44,948 bases of DNA from a virus. The position numbers and the translations under genes were made by a program. The notes under the pieces are model-generated. The model saw nothing but the letters and a program-made list of their open reading frames with translations, ran no database searches and was not told where the DNA came from. The stretch is from positions 1-44,948 of the IMG/VR virus record IMGVR_UViG_3300045922_000997; one strand, given 5' to 3'. Position 1 is the first letter of the stretch; each line of letters begins with the position of its first letter. Positions 53 through 34,874 of the stretch are shown piece by piece.

Positions 53-126
53 TCCCCGGTCGTCTAACGGTAGGACAGCGGCCTTTGGAGCCGTGAATCG
101 TGGTTCGAATCCATGCCGGGGAGCCA
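53..126 (+). tRNA. tRNA-Gln (anticodon TTG), CCA encoded
   Basis: The sequence folds as a complete cloverleaf. The acceptor stem is TCCCCGG (53-59) with CCGGGGA (116-122), followed by discriminator G and an encoded CCA (124-126). The anticodon loop is CTTTGGA, giving anticodon TTG (Gln). The T arm is CGTGG-TTCGAAT-CCATG. It lies directly beside the serine recombinase gene, which reads into it from the other strand, so it is the likely integration target. The 52 bases to its left hold a short GGAGGA/TCCTCC hairpin (36-49) and no gene that I can see. Confidence 0.95.
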
Positions 127-1653
127 CTTCTCAAAACTGGCCGTTTTCGCCGCATTCTCCCCGACCGCATCGCCTGCCGCCTCACGCGCAAGTGCCAACA
201 TGTCAAAGGGTTGGCGGTATTCCGCGGTCAACACACCGTCCTTCCAAACGCAGTTCGATAGTAGAAAATTGAGGAGGCGCCGTTTTTCCGCCGGTTCCTG
301 CCTCTCGAACAAGGCGTGGGCGCGGTCGGCCAGGCGCAGGAGTTGGACGCCTTCCTCGATGTAGGTCCGGTTGGCGGACTGGTGCGTCTCGATGTCGCGC
401 AGGATGCGGTCCTGCTCGGCGCGCCACTCGGCCGACTTGCGGTCGAAGAAGGCGTTGTCGATCCGGCCGTCCAGCTTGTCCACGTACATCGCGTCGATGC
501 GGTCCTGGAGGCGGCGGTACTCCGCCTGGAGCCGTCCGATGGCTTCGTCGTGGAACGCCTTTTCGTCGCGGTGGCTTTCGCGCAGCGCGGTGACGATCCA
601 CTCCAGGACGTCCTTTGGGAACGTCAGCTTCCGGAGCAGCTCCGAGAACCATTCTTCCAGCACCTCCTCGCGCGTGTACGGCTCCGGGCAGCGGCCCTTG
701 TACCGCGAGCAGTGGTAGTAGACGTACTGCTGCTTCTTCAGTTCGCCGACGATGGCGCATCCGCAGTGGCCACACGTGATGAGGTTGCTGAAAGCGAAGT
801 CGTGCCGGACCTTGCGCGGCTTCTGGCGGCTGCGACCCTCGAGCCGATCCTGGACCTCCTGCCACAATTCACGGGAGACGATCGCCTCGTACTTGCCGGC
901 GTAGGTCTTGCCGTCGAAGTCGAAATCGCCCGAGTAGATGCGGTTGCGGAGGATCTTGTGGACGGTGGATGTCGGCACCGGGTTCCTGCTGCGCGGGTAG
1001 CACAGCCCATCCTGGCGGGCAACCTTGGCCAGTGCCTTCAGGGAATGGCGCCCCTCGGCGTATCGCTCGAAGAGCCGCCGGATGGCGGGGGCGAGGTTGG
1101 GATCGGGAGCGATAGTCCGCTTGCCGTCCGCGCCCATCACGTTGAGATATCCAAGCGGCGCGTAGGAGGGCCAGATGCCCTGGCGCGCCTTTTCGAGCAT
1201 CCCCTTCTTGGTCTCCTCTGACAGGTTGTCGATGTAGTTCTTGGCCATCAGGACCTTGATCCCGTGCATGAACTTCTCGGACGACCGCGATTCCTGGGAG
1301 ATGACGATGTTCTCTTTGACGAGGTGGATCTCGAGGTCCAGTTCGTCGAGCGTGACCCAGTCCTTGAGGTTGCGGTAAAGGCGGTCGGTCTTCTCGACGA
1401 GCAGGATCCGGCAGGTCTTGTCCTTGCGGAGGAACGCGAGCATCTCGCCGAAGCCCGTACGGCCGGCCTGCTTGGCCGTCTCGACGTCGACGAACTCCTT
1501 CAGGACCGTCAGGCCGCGGCTGGCGGCGTAGCCGCGCAGGAGTTGAAGCTGGGCGGGAATGGAGAAGCCCTCCCGCTCCTGGTCCTTCGAGGAGACGCGG
1601 GCGTAGAGGACAGCAGTCCTGTGACTCTCGCTTGGTGTTGATCGAGGCGGCAT
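64..1653 (-). CDS. Large serine recombinase (phage integrase)
   Basis: This 529-residue protein is a large serine integrase that cuts and rejoins att sites through a covalent serine-DNA link. The N-terminal resolvase domain (about 12-165) has the YARVSS motif with probable nucleophile Ser21. A recombinase DNA-binding domain follows (about 165-285), then a zinc ribbon with Cys294, Cys297, Cys315 and Cys322, then a charged coiled-coil tail. The length is usual for the family. The last 20 residues (after about residue 508) are the antisense of the tRNA-Gln gene and the stop lies inside the tRNA. The end of the protein is therefore set by the integration site and may differ in the excised form. 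A TATAGT -10-like hexamer sits upstream on the minus strand (1697-1692) without a clear -35. Confidence 0.93.
   Translation of the reverse strand: MPPRSTPSESHRTAVLYARVSSKDQEREGFSIPAQLQLLRGYAASRGLTVLKEFVDVETAKQAGRTGFGEMLAFLRKDKTCRILLVEKTDRLYRNLKDWVTLDELDLEIHLVKENIVISQESRSSEKFMHGIKVLMAKNYIDNLSEETKKGMLEKARQGIWPSYAPLGYLNVMGADGKRTIAPDPNLAPAIRRLFERYAEGRHSLKALAKVARQDGLCYPRSRNPVPTSTVHKILRNRIYSGDFDFDGKTYAGKYEAIVSRELWQEVQDRLEGRSRQKPRKVRHDFAFSNLITCGHCGCAIVGELKKQQYVYYHCSRYKGRCPEPYTREEVLEEWFSELLRKLTFPKDVLEWIVTALRESHRDEKAFHDEAIGRLQAEYRRLQDRIDAMYVDKLDGRIDNAFFDRKSAEWRAEQDRILRDIETHQSANRTYIEEGVQLLRLADRAHALFERQEPAEKRRLLNFLLSNCVWKDGVLTAEYRQPFDMLALAREAAGDAVGENAAKTASFEKWLPGMDSNHDSRLQRPLSYR
96..126. other. Probable attachment site (attL) in the 3' part of tRNA-Gln
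   Basis: The integrase gene abuts and overlaps the tRNA 3' half, as is usual when an element uses a tRNA as attB and restores its 3' end. The exact core cannot be set because the matching attR copy is not in this window, so the bounds given are approximate. This is inference from gene position and from the intact tRNA with CCA. Confidence 0.4.
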
Positions 1654-1780
1654 GGTTGCGTATCCGGTGGCACACGAAGTGTCCAGTACCTACTATACAT
1701 TCGCGTGGGAAACGGAATCCAGCATTGGTGAGATCAGAACGGCCCTCACGCCTTCCGAACCAGTGTGGTCCGAAACTGCC

Positions 1781-2734
1781 TCACGGCCTTCGTTGAATCG
1801 GCCTGACAAATCCGGCGGACGACAGCACCTGCACCAAATCAGCAACGACCGTCAACGCGAATTCTGGATCAACCAGCCGCCCTGAGATCACAACCCGGTC
1901 AGAGTGCGTGTGGCCATGCAGAATGCGCACTTTGCTGAGCAGATGATAGTCGAGGAATCCGAAGGGCAAGCGTACGGGCTTCTTCGACTTGAGCCTCTCA
2001 CCGAGTTCGGCGAGGGCTTGATCGAGCGTCTTCTTTTCTGGAGGCCCACCAAGCGCCAAGAGGACCAAGGACTCCGCGACGTTCTTTGCAGCGGTGATCA
2101 GGCTGGAGTGCAGATGGTTGGCGAGGCAGCGTTCCGCTTCCTTCCAGTCGCTCTCGACCTTCTGCCGGAGGAGTTCGTTGTCGATTGATGAGAAATCCAC
2201 CTCCGGCAGGTCACTGGCCATCCTGGTCGGCGCGAGAGTAAACATCTGCCTCCCGGCGATGTCCGATTCGACTCGGGCGATCCGCCAAAGGCTACTGGTC
2301 TCCCCAAGTCCGGTGAGAAAGTATCCCGGACGTCCCCGCTGAATGTCCGGTCCCCATGGGTACAGGTTGAGGGAGACCGCCGCCAAGTACTCCTCTACTT
2401 CGATTTGCGGTCGGCCGTGGTGGCCATCGGTCCAGTTGACCTTCACTGTTGTGTTCCAGCTGAAAACAATGCCGGACCGATTCGGCTCTCCGTCCGGACA
2501 CCGCAACGGCAGAAGCAAGAGTGGATACTTGCCTTCAAGTTCGCTCTTTGCCGCTCTGATCCCATCGTCAGTTCCAGCCTTCTCAACCGAGAGATAGCTG
2601 ACGCGGAGAAGCGGGTACGTGAAGCTGGCGGCCTCTGGAATCCCGCCAATCGTTGGTACCAGCAACAGCGGGGCTCCTCGTCGTTCTGCGATCCAGATCC
2701 TCGTTGCCCATTCGATGTTACTCAGGAACACCAC
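1781..2734 (-). CDS. Unknown protein with HEPN/DUF4145-like C-terminus, type I R-M accessory
   Basis: I do not recognise the N-terminal 200 residues of this 317-residue protein. They are soluble and mixed alpha/beta in look. The C-terminal third is helical and contains R270-ILHG-H275, an RX4H arrangement like that of HEPN-type ribonucleases and the DUF4145 branch, with a further His277. The gene starts 12 bases after hsdM and shares the hsdRSM transcript. Known type I R-M loci can carry an anticodon nuclease of HEPN type (PrrC) that responds when restriction is inhibited. A similar second line of defence is an inference here. It could instead be a non-catalytic helper, since the motif alone does not prove nuclease activity. 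Confidence 0.55.
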   Translation of the reverse strand: MVFLSNIEWATRIWIAERRGAPLLLVPTIGGIPEAASFTYPLLRVSYLSVEKAGTDDGIRAAKSELEGKYPLLLLPLRCPDGEPNRSGIVFSWNTTVKVNWTDGHHGRPQIEVEEYLAAVSLNLYPWGPDIQRGRPGYFLTGLGETSSLWRIARVESDIAGRQMFTLAPTRMASDLPEVDFSSIDNELLRQKVESDWKEAERCLANHLHSSLITAAKNVAESLVLLALGGPPEKKTLDQALAELGERLKSKKPVRLPFGFLDYHLLSKVRILHGHTHSDRVVISGRLVDPEFALTVVADLVQVLSSAGFVRPIQRRP

Positions 2735-2746
2735 CTCCCATTCAGG

Positions 2747-4267
2747 CTACCGAGCTGATCGCAGTTCTGCGATCAACGCCGCGATCTCTTTCTGCTTTGC
2801 CTCAATGATGTCCAGCAGCTCGGCTGGCGTCCGTTTGTCTTCGTCCTCGGTGACGTGCGGGTTGACCGCCTTCAGGTCGTAGTTGCGCGCCTCGAGCTGG
2901 CTGCGAGTGACGGTCCAACTCCGCGGCGAGTCGCTCCGCTTCGGCAGCCGGGCGAAGAAGTCATCAAAGTGACTGATCGTCAGCGGCTTTTTTTTCGACG
3001 CCTTCACGTCCGAGAGGTCGTAGTACCAGATCTTCTCCGTCGGCTCTCCCTTGGTGAAAAACACGAGGTTGGTCTTGACACTGGCGCCGGCCGCCACGAA
3101 CACGCCGGCGGGCAGACTGACGATGGACCAGACATTGCAGTCGTCGAGTAGCTTCTTTTTGGTCTGGAGGAACGCCGTTTCGCTCGTCCGGAACAACACG
3201 CCCTCGTCGAGCACGATGCCGCACCGGCCTCCGGGCTTCAGGCTGTCGATGACATGCTGGAGGAACAACACCTGCGTAGCGCCGGTCTTGTACGCGAACC
3301 GCGTCTGGGCCTCCTTGCCCTCTTTCCCACCGAACGGCGGGTTGGTCAGCACGACATCGTAGAGCGGCGGCGCGTCCTGGAAGAGTCCGCCGTAGATCTC
3401 CTGCCCCGTCAGCGTATTCCCGTGCCACAAGTTCGGCCGGTCGATGCCGTGGAGCACAAGGTTGGCGAGCGCAATCGGGTAGATCAGGTTCTCTTTTTCA
3501 CGTCCGTAGAAGGTCCGCTCCCGGAGAGTCTCAAGCTGGTCGGCCGTCGCATCGCGGCCGAGATTGGCCTTCATGTACTCAAAGCTCTGCGCGAGGAACC
3601 CACCTGTGCCGCAGCCTGGGTCGTAAACCGTCTCGCCCACGCGCGGATTGACTGCTCGAACCATCGCCCGGATGACTTCGCGCGGTGTGAAGAACTGCCC
3701 GCCGTCGTTGCCCTTCTCGCCCATCTTCAAGAGGAGGCCCTCGTAGACCTGCGATAGGGTGAAAACGTGGGTCGGGTCCACCGTCTCGCTGCTGATCTCG
3801 TGAACCTTGTCCAGCACGTCGAGCAGGTTGCGTTCCGTATCGATCCGGACCCGTTCGACGCCGGACATGATCTCGCTGATGACCTTCTGTTTTATCGTGG
3901 CGCCTGGCTTATCTTTCAGGCCGCGCAAATACGGCAAGAGCTTGCCGTTAACGAACCCGAAGAACGCACCCAGCGACCCGTCCTGCAAGGCCTTCCTCTT
4001 CTTGCCATCGGGCGCTGCCCAATCCCGCCACCGGTAAGGCTTTTCAACCGATGCTCGAAATTCGGCTCCAACGGCTTCGGCTTCTTGAGCCTCCTGTTCC
4101 TCGCGCTCATCCAGGATGCGGAGGAAAAGGATCCAGGTCAGTTCCGGAACGTACTGCATCGCGCCGGCGCAGTTGGACCGCCGCATGATGTCACAGATGC
4201 TCTTAACAGCGGTGTTGACCGACTGCTGGGTCAGGAGCGCTTTGCCGTTGCCATTCTTTGCCTTCAC
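2747..4267 (-). CDS. hsdM: Type I restriction-modification system DNA methyltransferase HsdM
   Basis: This 506-residue N6-adenine methyltransferase is the modification subunit of the HsdRSM complex and uses S-adenosylmethionine. An N-terminal helical HsdM domain (about 10-160) is followed by the catalytic domain with motif I DPGCGTGGF (216-224) and motif IV NPPF (309-312), and ends in a helical segment suited to contacting HsdS. Its start overlaps the hsdS stop by four bases, so translation is probably coupled. The length is normal and the motifs are intact. Without the specificity subunit it would not be expected to recognise DNA. Confidence 0.95.
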   Translation of the reverse strand: MKAKNGNGKALLTQQSVNTAVKSICDIMRRSNCAGAMQYVPELTWILFLRILDEREEQEAQEAEAVGAEFRASVEKPYRWRDWAAPDGKKRKALQDGSLGAFFGFVNGKLLPYLRGLKDKPGATIKQKVISEIMSGVERVRIDTERNLLDVLDKVHEISSETVDPTHVFTLSQVYEGLLLKMGEKGNDGGQFFTPREVIRAMVRAVNPRVGETVYDPGCGTGGFLAQSFEYMKANLGRDATADQLETLRERTFYGREKENLIYPIALANLVLHGIDRPNLWHGNTLTGQEIYGGLFQDAPPLYDVVLTNPPFGGKEGKEAQTRFAYKTGATQVLFLQHVIDSLKPGGRCGIVLDEGVLFRTSETAFLQTKKKLLDDCNVWSIVSLPAGVFVAAGASVKTNLVFFTKGEPTEKIWYYDLSDVKASKKKPLTISHFDDFFARLPKRSDSPRSWTVTRSQLEARNYDLKAVNPHVTEDEDKRTPAELLDIIEAKQKEIAALIAELRSAR

Positions 4268-5436
4268 GTCGATGGTTGGACCTCGTTTCCATTGCGCAGG
4301 ATCGCCGCGACGAGACTCCGAATGCCTTCCACTTGCTGTTGAAGCTTGTTGACAACTTGAGACTGTTGTTCAAACGATTTCAAAAGTGTTTCGGCGATCC
4401 GTCTTTGCTGCGCCAGAGTCGGTAACATGAGCGGGAAGGCCCCGAGCACGCGTTGGTTGATGGTAGCGATGCCAGTGGTTTGCTTTGCGTGGCGCAAAAA
4501 ATACGCCTTCCCGTAGGGTGAGCCGATCTGGAATGACGCAAAATCAGGGTCAGCAATGCTACGGTTAAGGCGGACTCGAAAGATGTGGTTCTGGTGAATG
4601 CAGCCACGCACCTGACCTCGCCAGACCGCACCGCGCCCAAGCTTGTCCCGATCACCACCCTCCGTGAGGAGGACATCACCGTCGCAAAGGGCTAGCCGTT
4701 CGTACTCGCGGTCGGACGCAGGTGTCTCCAGAATCTCAGCGGTGTCGATATAGCCATCCTTCACATTGGCCACCCGCAGGTAAGGACGCAGTGTCACGTT
4801 GTCCCCGTTTAGGTTCCGACCGAGGGTCACGCCCGCGACGATCTCTGCCACGTCGCGCAAGGGCCGGACGGGCCACTGAACACAGCTGGAAGGCTCAAAG
4901 AATGAGCGCAACCAGGAGGTGGGCAGAGCCTTGGCTGCGGCGAGAGCTTCAAGGGAGGTCGATTCAGCAGATGACGCCAGCGAGAGCTTTTGCGCGACGG
5001 ATAGCTGCGTGTCCCAGTTCGGTGCTTCCACCGTTCCATTGGCCAACCGCTTAAACAGAAGGCGCTCGCGGACCGCACCTCGGGCCAGAGAACGAATCAA
5101 ATCCTCTCCGTACTTCGAGCGCAGCCAGTAGTAGAACCATCGGTGGTGCAGCACGCCGGGGCGGGTGCGGAACACCACGTAGTCCGGGCTGGTGATCCCA
5201 GGCTCATCGCCGTCGTCCACCATCGCGATCGACCCAATCATGATACGCATCGGGTTGTAGAAGATCGTTCCCGGCTCGACCAGTTTGTACCGCTCAGGGG
5301 ACTTGCCAACCGGTTCCTTGGCGAGAGCCAGGCCGGCGCGTGTGGCTCCGAGCACGCGATATTCCGACCACCTGGGCCCCACGCCGGACGAAACCTCAAC
5401 CAGGGCCTCGCTGAGCGGGATGTTACGGACACTCAT
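4264..5436 (-). CDS. hsdS: Type I restriction-modification specificity subunit HsdS
   Basis: This 390-residue protein carries two target-recognition domains separated by helical spacers, the normal HsdS plan. The second TRD (about 195-350) shows the typical start (W..RPLRDVAEIVAG), a YLRVANVKDGYID segment and the PTLAQQRRIAETL entry into the C-terminal conserved helix. The first TRD is divergent, as expected for the sequence-reading subunit. It overlaps hsdR upstream and hsdM downstream by four bases each. The recognition sequence cannot be read from the protein. Confidence 0.9.
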   Translation of the reverse strand: MSVRNIPLSEALVEVSSGVGPRWSEYRVLGATRAGLALAKEPVGKSPERYKLVEPGTIFYNPMRIMIGSIAMVDDGDEPGITSPDYVVFRTRPGVLHHRWFYYWLRSKYGEDLIRSLARGAVRERLLFKRLANGTVEAPNWDTQLSVAQKLSLASSAESTSLEALAAAKALPTSWLRSFFEPSSCVQWPVRPLRDVAEIVAGVTLGRNLNGDNVTLRPYLRVANVKDGYIDTAEILETPASDREYERLALCDGDVLLTEGGDRDKLGRGAVWRGQVRGCIHQNHIFRVRLNRSIADPDFASFQIGSPYGKAYFLRHAKQTTGIATINQRVLGAFPLMLPTLAQQRRIAETLLKSFEQQSQVVNKLQQQVEGIRSLVAAILRNGNEVQPST

Positions 5437-7808
5437 GCCGAGAACATCCTCCTCTTGGTTTCAGCGAGCACTTGGGCAGGTATGCCAGCGAGTTTGAGAG
5501 CGGCAAGGCCACCCGCTCCGCGCATCTCCGGGGTAGCGAAGATCTGCGGGTTCTCCAGGCCGTCCGTGCCTGCTTTGGCGAACTGGCTGGCCAGGGCGCG
5601 CACGGCGTCCGCAGCCTGCGGCGGCATCGCGCTGAGCCACGGGGCGTGTTTATAGCCAAACGCCGCCGCCCGCTCTGCCCGTGTCCGCGGCTGCATTCCG
5701 TAACCGAGTTCGGCCAGCACGTCGTACAAATCGAAATCCTGCATCTCCTCGAGGTCTCGCACAAGCAGAACGGACCGGCCGGCATCGGGCAATTGGCCGA
5801 TCAACGTGCGCCTCTCCTGTGGCGCGACCCACTTCGCGCGGAAGTCGTCGAGAGTCGGCGCTTCCTCAACCAGTTTCGCGGCGAGCCGTTCCTTGTATTC
5901 TTCCACCGTCACGGGCGTGGCCTTCCCATCCACCGAGGTCAGGATCAGTTTGCCGGCGTCGGTCACGATCACATCGAAGCCCTGGACCATGATCGACGGC
6001 TCGGGTGGGGGCGGCGGTGGCGGCTCTGGTCCTTCACCCGGTTCCTTTGGCTTTCGAGGGGGTGTGATCTTCGTGATGAAACTCTGCCCGAACAGCCGAG
6101 TTGCGTCCGTATAGTCGTACACGCGGAACATGAGTTTGCCGGTTGCCGGGTCGAGCCGGGTGCCGCGGCCTACCATCTGGTAGAACGCGATCGGAGAGCG
6201 GACGTACTTGAAGAAAACGATGTTCCGGACTCGGGGCACATCGACGCCTGTGGTGAGAAGATCGACCGTGGTTGCGATGAAAAAGGATCGCGAGGCGCCT
6301 TTGAGGTCTGCCAGGTACTGAGCCCCGCCGACGCTGGCCGTGCACTTGAATGCGTAGGGCTCCAACCGCTGTTTGCCATTCGAGGCGCACCACTGCGCGT
6401 ACAAGTTGTTCATGGCGATCGCCACGTCGTCTGCGTGCCGGTCGCGCACGCAGAAGATGATCGTTTTCTGCTCCGGGCCGCCCGTCTCCAGCAGATACCG
6501 GAACAGGTCCTCGCACATCGCGAGCACCCGATCCGGGAGCAAGAGCCTGTCCTCAAATTCCGTCTTTTCGTAGAGGTCCTGGAGTTGTTCGCGAGTGACG
6601 GGTTGGCCGGTATTCGCGTCCACCGGGCCACGGGCGAGAATGTCGTCGATCGTGATGCCCGTGTCGTCGAGGTTGACGCGGCCTTTCTGGATTTCACAGG
6701 CCGCCAGGTATCCGTCCTCGATGCCCTGAGCCATGTCGTATTCGTAGACAGGTTCGCCAAAATGCCGGATGTTGTCGGCGCTGATGGCGAGGTCGATGGC
6801 CGCCGCCGGACTCTCCTCCGGGATCTCCAGTTCACGCGGCGTAGCCGTGAGGCCAATTTGAACTGCGTCCGGGTTTCTGGTCAAGATCTGCGACCATTTG
6901 CCCCACGCGCTCCTGTGGCATTCATCAATGACGATGTGACTGAAGTAGTTGGGCGGGTAGAAGGTTGTCAAGAAGGTCGCCGTACCGTCCTCGTTCGAGA
7001 CGTCGAGAGTCTGGTAGGTCGCCACATGGATGCGGGCATTGCGGGCGTTGTTCGTGCCGTCCTGCCGCCGGTACACTTCTGCGGCGTCGGAGCCGAAGAC
7101 ATTCTGCAGGGCGCCCAAGCCCTGCGCCCGCAGTTCGTCGCGGTCGCAGACAAACAGTGCTCGCTTCAACTGGCCGGCATCCGCGATCTTCTTCAGGAGG
7201 TTCACAGCGATGAACGTCTTGCCAGCGCCGGTTGCCAAGGCGAGCAAGGCACGCTTCTCGCCGCGGGCGAGTTTCTCCAGCGCCGCACGAATAGCGGCGT
7301 CCTGGTAGTAGCGTCGGGTTGCCTCACCGCCCATGTACCGGACCAAGAGCGGCTTTGCGCCTTCCGATGCCAGGCTGAACTGCATTGCCTGTTCGTAGCG
7401 GCAGCGCAGTTCGTCAGGCGTGGGAAGTTGACTCAGCGGACGGGGTGCGCTTGTAAGTCCGGTGAAGCGGTCGTACTCGACGAACAGGCGCCCGTTGGTG
7501 GCGATGACGAACGGGACGTTGAGGCGCTTGCAGGCGGCATAGAGTTTGCCTTGCTCCAATCCGTGCGTTGGCGGGAGATGCTCGGCCTTCGCCTCCAACA
7601 CCGCGACAGCGACCAGTTGCGTGTCGATGTTGATCTTCACACGAAGGGTGTAATCGGTCCGGCCCTTGCCACGCCGGCGTGGTTTTCCGTCGATGATCTC
7701 GATGGTGCCGGCGGTCTCTTCGCGGCGGATATGCTCTTCCGTCCACCCGCGCTGGTGTAGTGCGGGGTCGATCAGTTTGGCCCGAGTATCTGCTTCGCTC
7801 AGTGGCAC
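5433..7808 (-). CDS. hsdR: Type I restriction enzyme HsdR (EcoEI-like)
   Basis: This 791-residue protein is the ATP-driven translocase and nuclease of the R-M complex. The N-terminal nuclease domain has the ExK signature (E72-A-K74). The SF2 motor has Walker A ATGAGKT (192-198), a DECH box (294-297), the SAT-like LTATP motif and the late motif GRGTRLD. A proline-rich linker containing PPPPPPPEP precedes an EcoEI_R_C-type C-terminal domain. The size matches the shorter EcoEI group rather than the EcoKI enzymes of over 1000 residues. It is first of the coupled R-S-M-accessory genes, and 78 bases separate it from the gene upstream on the same strand. Confidence 0.95.
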   Translation of the reverse strand: MPLSEADTRAKLIDPALHQRGWTEEHIRREETAGTIEIIDGKPRRRGKGRTDYTLRVKINIDTQLVAVAVLEAKAEHLPPTHGLEQGKLYAACKRLNVPFVIATNGRLFVEYDRFTGLTSAPRPLSQLPTPDELRCRYEQAMQFSLASEGAKPLLVRYMGGEATRRYYQDAAIRAALEKLARGEKRALLALATGAGKTFIAVNLLKKIADAGQLKRALFVCDRDELRAQGLGALQNVFGSDAAEVYRRQDGTNNARNARIHVATYQTLDVSNEDGTATFLTTFYPPNYFSHIVIDECHRSAWGKWSQILTRNPDAVQIGLTATPRELEIPEESPAAAIDLAISADNIRHFGEPVYEYDMAQGIEDGYLAACEIQKGRVNLDDTGITIDDILARGPVDANTGQPVTREQLQDLYEKTEFEDRLLLPDRVLAMCEDLFRYLLETGGPEQKTIIFCVRDRHADDVAIAMNNLYAQWCASNGKQRLEPYAFKCTASVGGAQYLADLKGASRSFFIATTVDLLTTGVDVPRVRNIVFFKYVRSPIAFYQMVGRGTRLDPATGKLMFRVYDYTDATRLFGQSFITKITPPRKPKEPGEGPEPPPPPPPEPSIMVQGFDVIVTDAGKLILTSVDGKATPVTVEEYKERLAAKLVEEAPTLDDFRAKWVAPQERRTLIGQLPDAGRSVLLVRDLEEMQDFDLYDVLAELGYGMQPRTRAERAAAFGYKHAPWLSAMPPQAADAVRALASQFAKAGTDGLENPQIFATPEMRGAGGLAALKLAGIPAQVLAETKRRMFSA

Positions 7809-11572: not shown

Positions 11573-11767
11573 ATGAGCGAGCCCAGGCAAGAGTTCCTCG
11601 AACAGACCCGAAGCTTCTGGCAGAAGCGGACGGACCGGCCACTGTCTCTTGAAGACGCCCGGCAGATCGCCGCGAACGCGGCCGGCGTGTTCCAGGTGCT
11701 GGCGCAGTGGGCGGAGGCCGAGGACCGCCGTCATCCGAATCCCCCTCAGGAGGCGGCGGGCCGATGA
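11573..11767 (+). CDS. Small helical unknown protein upstream of the ParB-like gene
   Basis: From the ATG at 11573 this encodes 64 residues, mostly helical, with the core FWQKRTDRPLSLEDARQIA. The same frame is open to 11507, but the extra residues look non-coding. Its stop overlaps the ParB-like start as ATGA, so the two genes are probably coupled. The 135 bases before it (11438-11572) hold no gene that I can support. Confidence 0.6.
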   Translation: MSEPRQEFLEQTRSFWQKRTDRPLSLEDARQIAANAAGVFQVLAQWAEAEDRRHPNPPQEAAGR

Positions 11768-12711
11768 CGTCCAATCTCGTTCTTCGTGAAGTCCCATGCG
11801 ACTCGATCCGCGTCGTGGGGCGGCACCGCCGCGACCTGGGCGAACTGGAGGTGCTCGCAGCCAGCATAGCGACCGTGGGACTGCTCCACCCGCCGGTGAT
11901 TACCAAGGACGGCGTGCTGATCTGCGGAGAGCGGCGCCTCGTGGCGACGCGCGACATCCTCGGCTGGAAGACGATTCCGGTGATTGTGCTCGAGGTGTCG
12001 AGCATTGTCGAAGGGGAGTACGCGGAGAACGAGATCCGCAAGGATTTCACGCCGTCCGAGCGCGTGGCCATCGGCAAGGCGATTGAAGCGGAGATCGGCA
12101 AGCGCCAGGGGCAGCGTACGGATAAGGAACTTCCGCCAGATCTGGCGGAAGTTACGCCGGGCGTGGAGACGCGCGAGGTCGCAGCGAAGAAGGCCGGGTT
12201 TGGCGGCCACTCCACTTATGAGCAGGCCAAGAAGGTCGTCGAGAAGGCCGTTGACGAAGTGGTCGCGCAGATGGACGCCGGCGGCCTGTCGATCAGCGCG
12301 GCCGCGGTGATCGCCGACCAGCCGCCAGAGGCGCAGCGCGAGATCGTGCAGATGCCCGCTGCCGTGCGCCGCCAGATCGTGCGCCAACTGCGCGAGGCCA
12401 CCGAACTCCCTTCCACCGCCGAAGCGCGGCGCATTGCTCGCGAGACGGGCATGCTCGTGGCGGACCGAACCGGAAGGTACCGCTCGGGCCTCTCGGACGA
12501 GGAACGCAAGGCGCTCAAGGAAGATCTTGACTCGATCTGGGCGGTGACGCGCGCCGTCATGGCTCTGGCCGAGACGCCGCTCGATCCGGTCGACCTGGCA
12601 TCGCGGCTTGAATACTGGCACTGCCCGGGCATCCGGGCCAAATCGCCGGTCGCTCTCGACTGGCTCCACCGCTTTGAGGAGGCAATCCGTGACAAGACCC
12701 AGATTTCATGA
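11764..12711 (+). CDS. ParB/Spo0J-like nuclease-domain protein
   Basis: This 315-residue protein begins with a ParB N-terminal domain (about 8-95), seen in LEVLAASIATVGLLHPPVIT, the GERRL motif and the ENEIRKDFTPSERVAI segment typical of the ParB-to-KorB linker. A helical region follows. There is no ParA gene nearby, so it is more likely a phage regulator or nuclease-like protein than a partition factor. A perfect 26-bp palindrome (12128-12153) lies in frame and encodes the KELPPDLAEVT stretch in what looks like a linker. I chose ATG 11764 for its ATGA overlap with the gene before. Confidence 0.85.
   Translation: MTSNLVLREVPCDSIRVVGRHRRDLGELEVLAASIATVGLLHPPVITKDGVLICGERRLVATRDILGWKTIPVIVLEVSSIVEGEYAENEIRKDFTPSERVAIGKAIEAEIGKRQGQRTDKELPPDLAEVTPGVETREVAAKKAGFGGHSTYEQAKKVVEKAVDEVVAQMDAGGLSISAAAVIADQPPEAQREIVQMPAAVRRQIVRQLREATELPSTAEARRIARETGMLVADRTGRYRSGLSDEERKALKEDLDSIWAVTRAVMALAETPLDPVDLASRLEYWHCPGIRAKSPVALDWLHRFEEAIRDKTQIS
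12128..12153. repeat. 26-bp perfect palindrome inside the ParB-like gene
   Basis: The left arm AACTTCCGCCAGA (12128-12140) is followed at once by its exact reverse complement TCTGGCGGAAGTT (12141-12153). It is nearly the same as one of three palindromes at 34321-34401, 22 kb away, so it belongs to a repeat family and is not a codon-usage accident. It is read through in frame. Confidence 0.85.
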
Positions 12712-21736: not shown

Positions 21737-22096
21737 ATGGCTGATTCTCCGTCCCTCCAGCCGCGATCGTTTGGGAAGATCGCGGTCTCCACGCCAGGAA
21801 CACCCGTCCGGGTGACCTCCGACACCTCGATCCGGGCTCACCGGATCCGGTTCGCCGTCGCCATCGGCGAGACGGGCCGGGTGTTCCTCGGTGTGGCGGG
21901 GATGAACAAGGCGACCGGCGCCGGCGTGGTGAAAGAGTTCTGGCCCACGGGCGCGGGCGGCGGCGTGGCCGATGAGTTGGTTCTCGAATCCGCCTCGGGC
22001 GACCTGCGGCCGTCGGACTACTTCGTCGACGCCAACACAGCCGGCGAGGGGTTGATCGTCGCCTACTGGGTCTGGGTTCCGAGCTATGGCAGTTGA
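21737..22096 (+). CDS. Unknown beta-rich protein
   Basis: This is a 119-residue beta-rich protein rich in Gly, Val and Thr, with segments such as FGKIAVSTPGTPVRVT and EGLIVAYWVWVP at the end. It looks like small structural or decoration proteins of phages, but I see no known family. It overlaps the start of the first ParB-methyltransferase by 11 bases. Confidence 0.65.
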   Translation: MADSPSLQPRSFGKIAVSTPGTPVRVTSDTSIRAHRIRFAVAIGETGRVFLGVAGMNKATGAGVVKEFWPTGAGGGVADELVLESASGDLRPSDYFVDANTAGEGLIVAYWVWVPSYGS

Positions 22097-23546
22097 TCGC
22101 GTGACGCCGGCGATGGCGAAGCGCATCGAGCTGTGGCGGGTGGACCGATTGGCGCCTTACCAGCGGAACCCGCGGACGCATTCCGAGGAGCAAGTGACGC
22201 AGATCGCGGCCTCGATTGCGGAGTTCGGCTTCTGCAATCCGATCTTGGTGGACTCGCGCGATGGCATCGTGGCCGGGCACGGGCGGCTGCTGGCGGCAAA
22301 GAAACTCGGGCTCGCCGAAGTGCCGGTGATCGTGCTGGATCATTTGGGCGAGACCCAACGGCGAGCCTACTTGCTGGCTGACAACCGGTTGTCGGAGCTG
22401 GCCGGCTGGGATCACGAGTTGCTGGCGCTCGAACTGAAGGAGATTGCGGACGCCGGGTTCGACCCGACGCTCGCCGGATTCGACTCGAAGGAGGTTGACG
22501 ACTTCCTGGCGTCGCTCGAACGGGACGCTGAGCTCGAAGCCGAACAGGTCGGCGACGCCATTCCGGAGTTGCCTGCGGAGGCGGTAACGACGCCTGGAGA
22601 CCTCTGGCTGATTGGTCCCCATCGCCTTATCTGCGGGGACTGCCGCGATCGCAGCGTCATCGCGCGGCTGTTTGAGGACCAGAAAGCGAACGTCGTCATT
22701 ACGTCGCCACCCTACGCCACGCAGCGGCAGTACGATCCGTCGAGCGGGTTCGCGCCGGTCGCGCCGGAGAAATACGTCGCCTGGTTCAGGGACGTGGCGG
22801 GGGCGGTCGAATCGGTGCTCGCGCCCGACGGCTCCTACTTCCTCAACATCAAGGCTCACGCCGAGGAGGGCGAACGGCACACCTACGTGATGGACCTGGT
22901 GCTTGCGCACAAGCGGCAGTGGGGCTGGCGGTTCGTCGATGAGTTCTGCTGGCGCAAGACCGACGACGGCGTTCCCGGCGGCTGGTCGAACCGCTTCAAG
23001 AACGCCTGGGAGCCGATCTACCACTTCTCACGCGAGCGCAAGATCAAGTTCCGGCCGCGCGAAGTGGGTCACTGGTCGGACGACTGTTTCGACTACTCAC
23101 CCGATAACCCGAAATCGACTTCGGGCAGCGGGCTGCTGGGCACGGGGCCGCGCGGCGCGGCGGCCGACAAGGGCAAGAACCATGCGGCCTGGCAGACGAC
23201 GCGCCGCAACGCCAACGACCTCGAAGGCCGGCATGGCGGGCTGGCGCGCCCGTCGAATGTGATCGAGGCCAAGACCGAGTCCTCGCAAGGGAACCACTCG
23301 GCGCCGTTTCCCCGCGCGATTCCGGAGTTTTTCATCAAAGCATTCTCGGACGCCGGCGACGTGATCTTCGACCCGTTCGCGGGCAGCGGCACGACGCTGG
23401 TCGCCGCCGGGCTGCTTGAACGAGCGGGCTTCGGCATCGAGATCAGCCCGGCCTACTGCGATGTGATCCTGCGCCGACTGCAGGAGACCTTGAAGCTCAC
23501 GCCCGTGCATGCGCTGACGGGCGAACCATTTCAACCCAACACGTGA
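22086..23546 (+). CDS. ParB-domain DNA methyltransferase fusion (first copy)
   Basis: This 486-residue protein joins a ParB-like domain (about 15-110; HSEEQVTQIAASIAEFGF, AGHGRLLAAKKLG) to a beta-class DNA methyltransferase. Motif IV is TSPPY near residue 206, the form common in N4-cytosine and some N6-adenine enzymes. Motif I is FDPFAGSGTT near residue 428, after the target domain, the usual permuted order. Such fusions are common in phages and protect phage DNA or mark it. A second copy with a different motif IV lies at 24339. The alternative start ATG 22113 is possible. Confidence 0.92.
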   Translation: MAVDRVTPAMAKRIELWRVDRLAPYQRNPRTHSEEQVTQIAASIAEFGFCNPILVDSRDGIVAGHGRLLAAKKLGLAEVPVIVLDHLGETQRRAYLLADNRLSELAGWDHELLALELKEIADAGFDPTLAGFDSKEVDDFLASLERDAELEAEQVGDAIPELPAEAVTTPGDLWLIGPHRLICGDCRDRSVIARLFEDQKANVVITSPPYATQRQYDPSSGFAPVAPEKYVAWFRDVAGAVESVLAPDGSYFLNIKAHAEEGERHTYVMDLVLAHKRQWGWRFVDEFCWRKTDDGVPGGWSNRFKNAWEPIYHFSRERKIKFRPREVGHWSDDCFDYSPDNPKSTSGSGLLGTGPRGAAADKGKNHAAWQTTRRNANDLEGRHGGLARPSNVIEAKTESSQGNHSAPFPRAIPEFFIKAFSDAGDVIFDPFAGSGTTLVAAGLLERAGFGIEISPAYCDVILRRLQETLKLTPVHALTGEPFQPNT

Positions 23547-24072: not shown

Positions 24073-24342
24073 ATGATTCGCGAACTGCGGCTGTGGTGGC
24101 GGCTGCGGCCGCTCGTCAACCGATTCCAGGAGCTCACGAAGATGAAGATCTCGTTGAACGTCGCGATTCAGATGCTGGCGCTGGCGGCGCAAGGCTTGAA
24201 CGCCTCGATCGACCTGCTGCCCGGGCGCGGCAAGTTCTGGGCCATGGTCGGGCTGTCCGCCGTGCAGGGTCTCACGGCCGTACTCGCCCACTTTGCCAAC
24301 CCTGATGGCACGCCGGCCGAGGCGCCTTACATCAAGAAGTGA
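24073..24342 (+). CDS. Small membrane protein, possible holin
   Basis: This encodes 89 residues from ATG 24073 (a GTG lies three bases earlier). Two hydrophobic stretches (ISLNVAIQMLALAAQGL and FWAMVGLSAVQGLTAVLAHF) follow a charged N-terminus (MIRELRLWWRLRPLVNR). Size and topology suit a phage holin, but there is no endolysin next to it, and small phage membrane proteins of other roles look alike. Its stop overlaps the next GTG start. Confidence 0.6.
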   Translation: MIRELRLWWRLRPLVNRFQELTKMKISLNVAIQMLALAAQGLNASIDLLPGRGKFWAMVGLSAVQGLTAVLAHFANPDGTPAEAPYIKK

Positions 24343-25598
24343 AGCCCGACCTCCAAGTCGAACGCTGGCCCCTCGAGCGGCTGATTCCCTGCGCGAGGAA
24401 TCCGCGCACGCACACCGAGGAGCAGGTGGCGCAGATCGCAGCCTCGATCGCCGAGTTCGGGTTCGTCAACCCCGTGCTGGTCGGCGCCGACGGCGTCATC
24501 ATCGCGGGCCACGCCCGTGTCATGGCCGCCCGGAAGCTCGGGATGGCCGAGGCGCCGGTGATCGTGCTGGACCACTTGAGCGAGGCGCAGCGGCGCGCGC
24601 TGGTGATTGCCGACAACAGGCTTGCCCAGAACGCGGGGTGGGATGAGGAAATGCTGCGCGTCGAGTTGGAGGCGCTTCGCGAAGACGACTTTAACCTCGA
24701 CCTGCTGGGCTTCGAGGACGCAGAGATCGAAGCGCTGCTCGCTGAGTCCCAACGCGAGTCTTCGGGACTAACGGACGAAGACGCCGTCCCGGAGGCGCAG
24801 GAAACCGCAGTCACCGTGCCGGGCGACGTGTGGGTGCTTGGCGACCATCGCTTAGTGTGCGGCGACTCGACGCAGGTGGCGACGGTCGAGAAAGTGCTGG
24901 CCGGCGGGCTGGCGGACATGACCTGGACAGACCCTCCCTATGGGGTCAACTACGGCGCGACGATGAAGGACAAGCTTCGAAAGAAGCATCGCCGGATCGC
25001 CAACGACAACCTCGGCCCCGCGTTCGAACCCTTCCTTCGCGACGCCTCCGCGAACATCCTGGCCGTCACGAAGGGGGCCGTCTACATCTGCATGTCGTCC
25101 TCCGAGCTGCACACGCTGCACAAGGCCTTCACCGCGGCGGGCGGCCACTGGTCGACGTTCCTCATCTGGGCCAAGAACACATTCACGATGGGCAGGTCCG
25201 ACTACCAGCGGCAGTACGAGCCGATTCTCTACGGCTGGAAGGAAGGAATGGATCATTACTGGTGCGGGGCCCGCGACCAGGGCGATGTCTGGTTCGTCAA
25301 GAAGCCCGTTGCGAACGACCTGCACCCGACCATGAAGCCCGTCGAGTTGGTCGAGCGGGCGATTCGCAACTCGAGCAAGAGCCGCGACACGGTACTCGAT
25401 CCGTTCGCCGGGTCGGGCTCGACGCTGATCGCTTGCGAGAAGACCCGCCGCCAGGCGCGGCTGATCGAACTGGAGCCCAGGTACTGTGATGTCATCATCC
25501 GCCGCTTTGAAGAGTTCTCCGGCAAGCGCGCCGTGCTCGAATCCGACGGACGAGGGTTCGCAGAGATCGCCCTGGAACGAGGAGCGGTGGCGGCGTGA
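24339..25598 (+). CDS. ParB-domain DNA methyltransferase fusion (second copy)
   Basis: This 419-residue protein has the same ParB plus beta-class methyltransferase plan as the gene at 22086, and its ParB part is clearly similar (HTEEQVAQIAASIAEFGF, AGHARVMAARKLG). Motif IV here is TDPPYG near residue 196, the form usual for N6-adenine enzymes, and motif I is FAGSGST near residue 355. The target domain differs, so the specificity probably differs. Start GTG 24339 overlaps the previous stop. Confidence 0.92.
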   Translation: MKPDLQVERWPLERLIPCARNPRTHTEEQVAQIAASIAEFGFVNPVLVGADGVIIAGHARVMAARKLGMAEAPVIVLDHLSEAQRRALVIADNRLAQNAGWDEEMLRVELEALREDDFNLDLLGFEDAEIEALLAESQRESSGLTDEDAVPEAQETAVTVPGDVWVLGDHRLVCGDSTQVATVEKVLAGGLADMTWTDPPYGVNYGATMKDKLRKKHRRIANDNLGPAFEPFLRDASANILAVTKGAVYICMSSSELHTLHKAFTAAGGHWSTFLIWAKNTFTMGRSDYQRQYEPILYGWKEGMDHYWCGARDQGDVWFVKKPVANDLHPTMKPVELVERAIRNSSKSRDTVLDPFAGSGSTLIACEKTRRQARLIELEPRYCDVIIRRFEEFSGKRAVLESDGRGFAEIALERGAVAA

Positions 25599-34015: not shown

Positions 34016-34321
34016 ATGAGCGGCTGGGAAGCGGCGGTGAGCGGCCTGAACGCGGCCGTCGTGAATACGTTCGGCCGCGAGGTTCTCTACCTTCCCGAGG
34101 CGGGCGGGCAGGCTGCCGTCCGCGCGGTGTTTCAGCCGGCGCGGGAGGCCGAAGATGCATCGCCGGGCGTCTATGCGGTGATATTTGCGCGGCTGTCGGA
34201 TCTGCCGTCGGCGCCCGTGCGCGGCGACGAGGTTGAGATCGAAGGCAGTCGGTACAAGGTCTTCGATATCGAAGCCGACGCCGAGGGCGCCGCGGTGCTC
34301 CGGCTCCGCAAGACCGGCTGA
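34016..34321 (+). CDS. Head-tail attachment protein (gpFII-like)
   Basis: This 101-residue beta-rich protein begins SGWEAAVSGLNAAVVNTFGR and contains ARLSDLPSAPVRGDEVEI and SRYKVFDIEADAEGAAVLRL. Size, fold pattern and position after the major capsid gene fit lambda FII (117 residues), which joins head and tail. No FI homolog lies between E and this gene. Confidence 0.75.
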   Translation: MSGWEAAVSGLNAAVVNTFGREVLYLPEAGGQAAVRAVFQPAREAEDASPGVYAVIFARLSDLPSAPVRGDEVEIEGSRYKVFDIEADAEGAAVLRLRKTG

Positions 34322-34401
34322 CTTGTGGAAGATCTTCCACAGGTCGGACTTCCGCCAAATCTGGCGGAGGTTTCTCGACTTGTGCGCAATTGCGCACAAG
34401 T
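34321..34401. repeat. Three consecutive 24-bp palindromes
   Basis: P1 (34321-34344) has the perfect core TGTGGAAGATCTTCCACA and one mismatch further out. P2 (34348-34371) is built on TCCGCCA/TGGCGGA with two mismatches. P3 (34378-34401) has perfect arms ACTTGTGCGCAA and TTGCGCACAAGT. All begin ACTT and end AGGT or AAGT, and starts are 27 and 30 bases apart, so reading frames pass through them. P2 is nearly the same as the palindrome inside the ParB-like gene at 12128. They fill most of the 97-base gap between the gpFII-like and gpZ-like genes, which holds no gene I can support. Confidence 0.9.
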
Positions 34402-34418
34402 TCTCTTGAAGACGGTTC

Positions 34419-34874
34419 ATGCCAAGCGTCCGGGTCTACCAGAAGAAGCAACTGCGGCTCGACCTGCTGACCTTCCGCCAGCGCCAGATGTATGAGTTGG
34501 GCGCGGCCGGTGTCACGGCGGTAAAGACGCGGCTCGCCGCCGCCCAAGGCCCGGAGGATTCCGCTGCTAAGCCGCTCACCAAACGCTACGCGATCTGGAA
34601 GACGCGCAAGGGCAAGGGCAACCGCCGCAACCTGACATTCTCGGGCGACTTGCTGCGCAACTTCCAGGTCCGCATGGTGAGCGAGAACCGCGCCAAGGCC
34701 AACGTCTCGACCCGCAAGGACCGGATCAAGGCCTGGGCCAACCAGAAGCGCGAGGCCTGGATGGTGTTCTCGCCGAAGAACAAGGCGTCGGTCATGGAGG
34801 CAGCCCGCAAGATGCTGGAAGCGATGAAGCCGCGGCTGCTCGTCGAACGCAGCTTGGGAGGAAAGCAGAGATGA
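34419..34874 (+). CDS. Phage virion morphogenesis protein (gpZ/gp10-like)
   Basis: This 151-residue basic protein has the central segment NLTFSGDLLRNFQVRMVSEN, as in tail-completion proteins of the gpZ/HK97 gp10 type. It follows the head-tail attachment gene, as Z follows FII in lambda, and overlaps the next gene by four bases. In lambda, Z is needed for the head-proximal tail end. Confidence 0.75.
   Translation: MPSVRVYQKKQLRLDLLTFRQRQMYELGAAGVTAVKTRLAAAQGPEDSAAKPLTKRYAIWKTRKGKGNRRNLTFSGDLLRNFQVRMVSENRAKANVSTRKDRIKAWANQKREAWMVFSPKNKASVMEAARKMLEAMKPRLLVERSLGGKQR

Follow-up and report, generated by a model that had tools for sequence, protein, structure and literature searches.

Fixed-end 24-bp palindromes with covarying arms occur at a gene junction and in interdomain linkers of phage genomes

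A palindrome array at the head-closure junction of a tailed phage

The DNA analyzed here (the window) is one entire IMG/VR virus record of 44,948 bases. Its gene set includes a serine integrase, type I restriction-modification, ParB genes, a D5 primase, a lambda-type portal, and a capsid E protein, and we infer from it a temperate tailed phage. The large serine recombinase (positions 64 to 1653) lies within a phage region on the minus strand (64 to 7808) and is followed by the full set of type I restriction-modification genes, hsdM (2747 to 4267), hsdS (4264 to 5436), and hsdR (5433 to 7808). Acidobacteriota are the likely hosts, since Bryobacterales genomes (L069, L071, and L076) carry the phage genes together with the palindrome array described below.

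The array lies in the segment from 34016 to 34874, between a plus-strand gene of 101 amino acids encoding a head-tail attachment or head closure protein, Hc1 (34016 to 34321; PF05354, phrog_82), and a conserved plus-strand gene of 151 amino acids that has no Pfam or PHROG match (34419 to 34874). The 97-base gap is filled by three palindromes, all given on the plus strand, with a slash at the center. Palindrome 1, ACTTGTGGAAGATCTTCCACAGGT (34321 to 34344), reads ACTT-GTG-GAA-GA/TC-TTC-CAC-AGGT and forms 11 of 12 pairs; it begins with the A that ends the stop codon (TGA) of the preceding gene. Palindrome 2, ACTTCCGCCAAATCTGGCGGAGGT (34348 to 34371), reads ACTT-CCG-CCA-AA/TC-TGG-CGG-AGGT with 10 of 12 pairs, and palindrome 3, ACTTGTGCGCAATTGCGCACAAGT (34378 to 34401), reads ACTT-GTG-CGC-AA/TT-GCG-CAC-AAGT and is perfect, with 12 of 12 pairs. 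The original prediction, which had placed three 24-bp palindromes in a row at 34321 to 34401 with starts 27 and 30 bases apart, is borne out in both respects. It had also read this spacing as keeping both strands open, which is no rule of the family, for the starts in related arrays are, for example, 27 and next 29 bases apart or 34, 28, and 33 bases apart. A protein-coding array was likewise rejected, as the start spacing in relatives is no multiple of three.

When both strands were searched with up to three mismatches allowed, ACTTGTGGAAGATCTTCCACAGGT matched its own site only, and shuffled sequences are expected to give 0 matches. Folded as RNA, the array stretch reaches –56.1 kcal/mol (z = –7.7). 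There is no T-run after the stem of the kind expected of an intrinsic terminator, and further copies sit inside open reading frames. A promoter was looked for at the array and none was found. An Rfam search placed no family at the palindromes, its two subthreshold matches lying elsewhere, and comparing the DNA with annotated phages and plasmids brought up no noteworthy match.

Fixed ends and covarying arms define a family

The palindromes belong to a true family with the frame RACTTnnGnnmRA/TYknnCnnAAGTY, in which the ends are fixed and the arms are variable but covary. The unit is 24 bp, or 26 counting the flanking purine and pyrimidine; a purine precedes it in 142 of 168 occurrences, and the near-fixed positions are the ends, G7/C18, and A12/T13. 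The three arm types of the window were seen again in 33, 31, and 11 other viral contigs, often adjoining each other, and nearly all of these contigs are relatives of the window phage with an array at the same junction.

Pairing was compared with that obtained when arms were shuffled among palindromes. In 7 unbiased ParB palindromes 78 pairs were observed versus 61 after shuffling, in 19 ParB palindromes 219 versus 176, and in 54 array palindromes 563 versus 441; none of 2,000 shuffles, in which relatedness is ignored, matched the observed pairing. Further members were found with looser patterns and with one scan of 84,980 bacterial and archaeal genomes. The scan gave 26 loci over several phyla, 22 of them with no more than one of the 12 pairs missing, whereas about 5 loci with such pairing would be expected at random by a binomial estimate, the scan pattern having left five pairs free. 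The single-site match of ACTTGTGGAAGATCTTCCACAGGT, this pairing excess, and covariation above that of shuffled arms rule out a chance origin. Members occur in metagenome-assembled and other genomes labeled Bryobacterales/Acidobacteriota, Magnetococcales, Verrucomicrobia, Nitrosomonas, Clostridia, and others. Weak pattern hits in an S1-domain protein (L081), in L070 and L088, in terminase-like open reading frames (L246 and L260), and in several low-GC contigs have 8 to 10 of 12 pairs or no palindrome, may be due to chance, and were not counted. Some arrays (L178, L184, and L208) also contain AATTCCGGACAATTGTCCGGAATT, or a sequence close to it, a sister palindrome whose ends differ.

Copies inside genes fall in linkers and at domain borders

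A fourth palindrome of the window, overlooked in the original prediction, lies in a ParB-like gene on the plus strand (11707 to 12711; PF02195, phrog_12047). This perfect copy, ACTTCCGCCAGATCTGGCGGAAGT (12129 to 12152, plus strand), reads ACTT-CCG-CCA-GA/TC-TGG-CGG-AAGT, is in frame, and encodes the octapeptide LPPDLAEV. In the predicted structure of the protein, a moderate model with a pTM of 0.43, residues 116 to 128 are the sole segment with a pLDDT below 50, and the octapeptide (residues 123 to 130) overlaps this segment; as modeled, the peptide thus falls in a low-confidence linker.

Relatives of this ParB were gathered by peptide patterns, with the palindrome unused in the search. Every one of 63 to 100% identity has a palindrome downstream of the QGQR motif, in the same linker as the window copy, and the arms are CCG.CCA, GTG.AAA/GAA, CCG.CTC/CGC, CCG.GAA, AGG.GAA, CCG.GTC/GGC, or CCG.CCA with a CATG center. 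The palindrome is absent from more distant relatives (37 to 48% identity), and no clean empty site was found among the close ones. The ParB proteins of the window and of L075 are 87% identical; their palindrome arms share 43% of bases, versus 85% over the 60 bases upstream.

Copies were also found in unrelated genes, at domain borders or in linkers. In the ATPase/nuclease region of terminases, L121 encodes LGENFPQV and L125 encodes LEENFPQV at the same position, and the L125 terminase has a second copy in another reading frame. D5 primases (L108, L128, and L267) carry a copy in front of the D5 domain, with differing arms, and two ParB-methylases (L159 and L160) carry one between the two domains. 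Most in-gene copies share a reading phase that gives L-x-x-(N/D)-x-x-x-V, the second copy of L125 and possibly L261 being exceptions. In L102 and L108, arrays precede a different phage gene. The two fusions of ParB_N and DNA methylase (PF01555) encoded by the window (22086 to 23546 and 24339 to 25598) lack family palindromes, unlike the ParB-methylases of L159 and L160. The genome of a gammaproteobacterial symbiont (G021; L090, L158, L162, L164, and L249) has at least 6 palindromes, some with looser arms (e.g., CCT.CTA) and several inside small linker-rich proteins.

A palindromic shape with a fixed outer frame would suit binding sites of a multispecific DNA-binding protein whose variants would read the different arms, for instance a ParB-like protein acting on parS-like palindromes; the phage encodes three ParB_N-domain proteins, and a copy is present in a ParB gene. 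We consider this quite improbable, since three or four arm types are mixed within one array, copies occur in terminase, primase, and methylase genes as well, and the arms differ even between the 87%-identical ParB proteins.

Occupied and empty sites at the same junction

Eighty relatives of the junction were fetched by alignment of the 151-amino-acid downstream protein, again with the palindrome unused in the search. Among 58 distinct gaps, 6 hold no palindrome, 7 hold one, 11 hold two, 26 hold three, and 8 hold four. Most zero-copy phages have a bare TGATG, in which the upstream stop overlaps the start of the 151-amino-acid gene (in L242, the upstream match may be a neighboring gene rather than the true one), and in most filled gaps the first palindrome starts at the A of the TGA stop. 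Mapping copy number onto an ML tree requires 18 label changes (minimum, 4; shuffled mean, 29.7), part of which are losses given that the tree is midpoint rooted. One clade with support of 100/95 places zero-copy rows beside one-copy rows bearing different kinds of palindrome, indicating that gain, loss, or exchange recurs. Related phages thus differ in whether a permissive site is filled and in which unit fills it, such sites being the stop/start junction and interdomain linkers.

The filled gaps also hold tails and linkers of about 12 to 18 bp that differ between phages, so the insert is not always exactly 24 bp. In L231 the last palindrome is truncated, being cut into the start codon. No clear target-site duplication was seen by eye in the aligned flanks of the junction. 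The gap of L236 measures 619 bases, with roughly 550 extra bases between the palindromes and the next gene.

Three further alternatives were considered. First, the units may act in cis as RNA hairpins, for mRNA processing or stability between cistrons and for ribosome pausing at interdomain linkers, and be kept by selection with compensatory changes. The strong covariation, the high stability of the tandem hairpins, and the large share of mismatches at the central bases, which would form the loop, are in keeping with this idea. Among unique array palindromes, moreover, coding-strand G.T mismatches are commoner than A.C mismatches (29 versus 20), although this strand bias is weak because T3.G22 alone accounts for 12 of the 29 G.T cases, mostly in one palindrome type; so slight an excess, dominated by one position, does not favor an RNA over a DNA hairpin. 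Close relatives live without any copy, no terminator-like T-run or Rfam family was found, and a stem alone would leave the fixed ends and core unexplained, so that we regard functional cis-hairpins as unlikely but deserving of weight.

Second, the palindromes may have arisen by chance in place, with quasipalindrome correction by template switching keeping the arms symmetrical and no mobility involved. Near-perfect arms and concerted arm changes would then need no selection; the identical fixed ends in unrelated genes and phyla, the tandem arrays, and presence or absence at the TGATG junction would all stay unexplained, which makes this reading highly improbable.

Third, the units may be boundary sequences, or linkers, that aid modular exchange between phages by homologous recombination. 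They do lie at gene and domain boundaries, and in three contigs other genes stand between two palindromes or arrays at the junction (L106, 188 to 3940; L132, 1578 to 5306; L118, 4483 to 5810). The intervening open reading frame of L118 is SDR oxidoreductase-like; in L106 and L132, neighboring phage genes are partly duplicated, which may reflect an assembly join. Boundary sequences of this kind should be conserved, yet the arms differ between phages, and 24 bp is short for homologous recombination; we hold such a role to be improbable.

The family differs from classical REP elements

The original prediction compared the palindromes with REP/MITE units. Its modular part stands, for a common outer frame is combined with differing inner arms, and the behavior resembles that of small mobile palindromes, with covarying arms and copies that come and go; a pool of REP/MITE copies in host genomes is not supported. 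Genomes bearing the family mostly have 1 to 4 matches, and one symbiont genome has 9, several of them palindromic. The strict pattern was rare in phylum samples, with one matching genome among 297 from Acidobacteriota and five among 299 from Pseudomonadota, counts that include the query genomes.

A partner transposase of the REP-associated TnpA (Y1) type, which had been suggested as a check, is absent from the window and from the copy-bearing genomes G006 and G016; in the remaining genomes searched, no Y1 match lies beside a known copy, the nearest being 8 kb away (contig 23 of G021). In the 8-nt flanks of 168 distinct occurrences, GTAG and CGTC tags number 1 to 2 each versus 5.5 to 9.7 expected and are therefore rarer than expected. 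Because the hosts are not full of copies, no GTAG/CGTC tag is evident, and the phage has no Y1, the family is not a classical REP, and a host REP/MITE mobilized with a RAYT was rejected on the same grounds of tag, copy number, and transposase. REPs of the GTAG and CGTC superfamilies are 20- to 40-bp palindromes, sometimes clustered or intragenic, in many phyla, and the CGTC type has loops of 4 to 5 nt (PMC3733652). The present family is likewise made of short palindromes that are clustered in places, intragenic in places, and spread over many phyla; unlike in REPs, the fixed ACTT/AAGT ends lie inside the stem. Next to RPEs (see below), intragenic REPs (PMC3733652) come closest to it in behavior.

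A proposed model for the palindromes as short insertion elements

We favor, with a probability of roughly 60%, the reading that the palindromes are copies of phage-associated 24-bp palindromic insertion elements whose enzyme is supplied in trans. They probably move as units by way of a single-stranded hairpin that a trans-acting enzyme reads. In single-stranded DNA (or RNA), each unit would fold into a hairpin of some 10 bp capped by a 4-nt loop; a putative enzyme of the phage or the host would read the fixed ends and the center and copy or paste the unit. Since pairing alone would be required of the arms, they could drift together or be swapped for those of another family member. Most copies would be neutral passengers, made tolerable by their position between genes or in loops and by the lack of stop codons in all frames of the common types. 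Against the insertion-element reading, all close ParB relatives keep the linker palindrome, a pattern that also fits selection for function.

More tentatively, the family could represent a new class of ultrashort mobile DNA, 24 bp long and noncoding, with fixed ends and a variable self-complementary core. Such units would reach gene junctions and interdomain linkers across many phyla through a phage or host enzyme acting in trans, and each in-gene insertion would add an octapeptide to a protein. If so, as little as 24 bp suffices for an insertable piece of DNA with a recognizable frame, and its insertion furnishes phage proteins with linker peptides. With filled and empty versions of a single junction available across many related phages, the movement of intragenic palindromes of the Rickettsia palindromic element (RPE) type becomes directly testable.

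In open-licence papers, we found none on these palindromes or their octapeptides, and broader searches led to work on REP, RPE, MITE, and PARCEL sequences; the family is not described in the papers found, which is no proof of absence. By analogy it most resembles the RPEs, palindromic repeats that lie in frame inside unrelated coding genes (PMC10969869, PMC3733652). RPEs are about 150 bp long and occupy Rickettsia chromosomes (PMC10969869), and some types are REP-like and shorter (PMC3733652). RPEs and the present family share an in-frame palindromic unit inside unrelated genes (here ParB, terminase, D5 primase, and ParB-methylase). The present family is set apart by the RPE descriptions (about 100 to 150 bp, Rickettsia), being far shorter at 24 bp, phage associated, and cross-phylum; it also has few copies per genome and forms arrays at a stop/start junction. 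PARCELs are palindromic coding DNA, horizontally spread and linked to mobile elements (PMC2996958), yet they consist of tandem 25-residue protein repeats, whereas this family contributes single octapeptides to linkers and forms noncoding arrays. The dispersed palindromic repeats of Volvox organelle genomes, which are regarded as selfish (PMC2670323), belong to the organelles of an alga and are an analogue by description, not by sequence.
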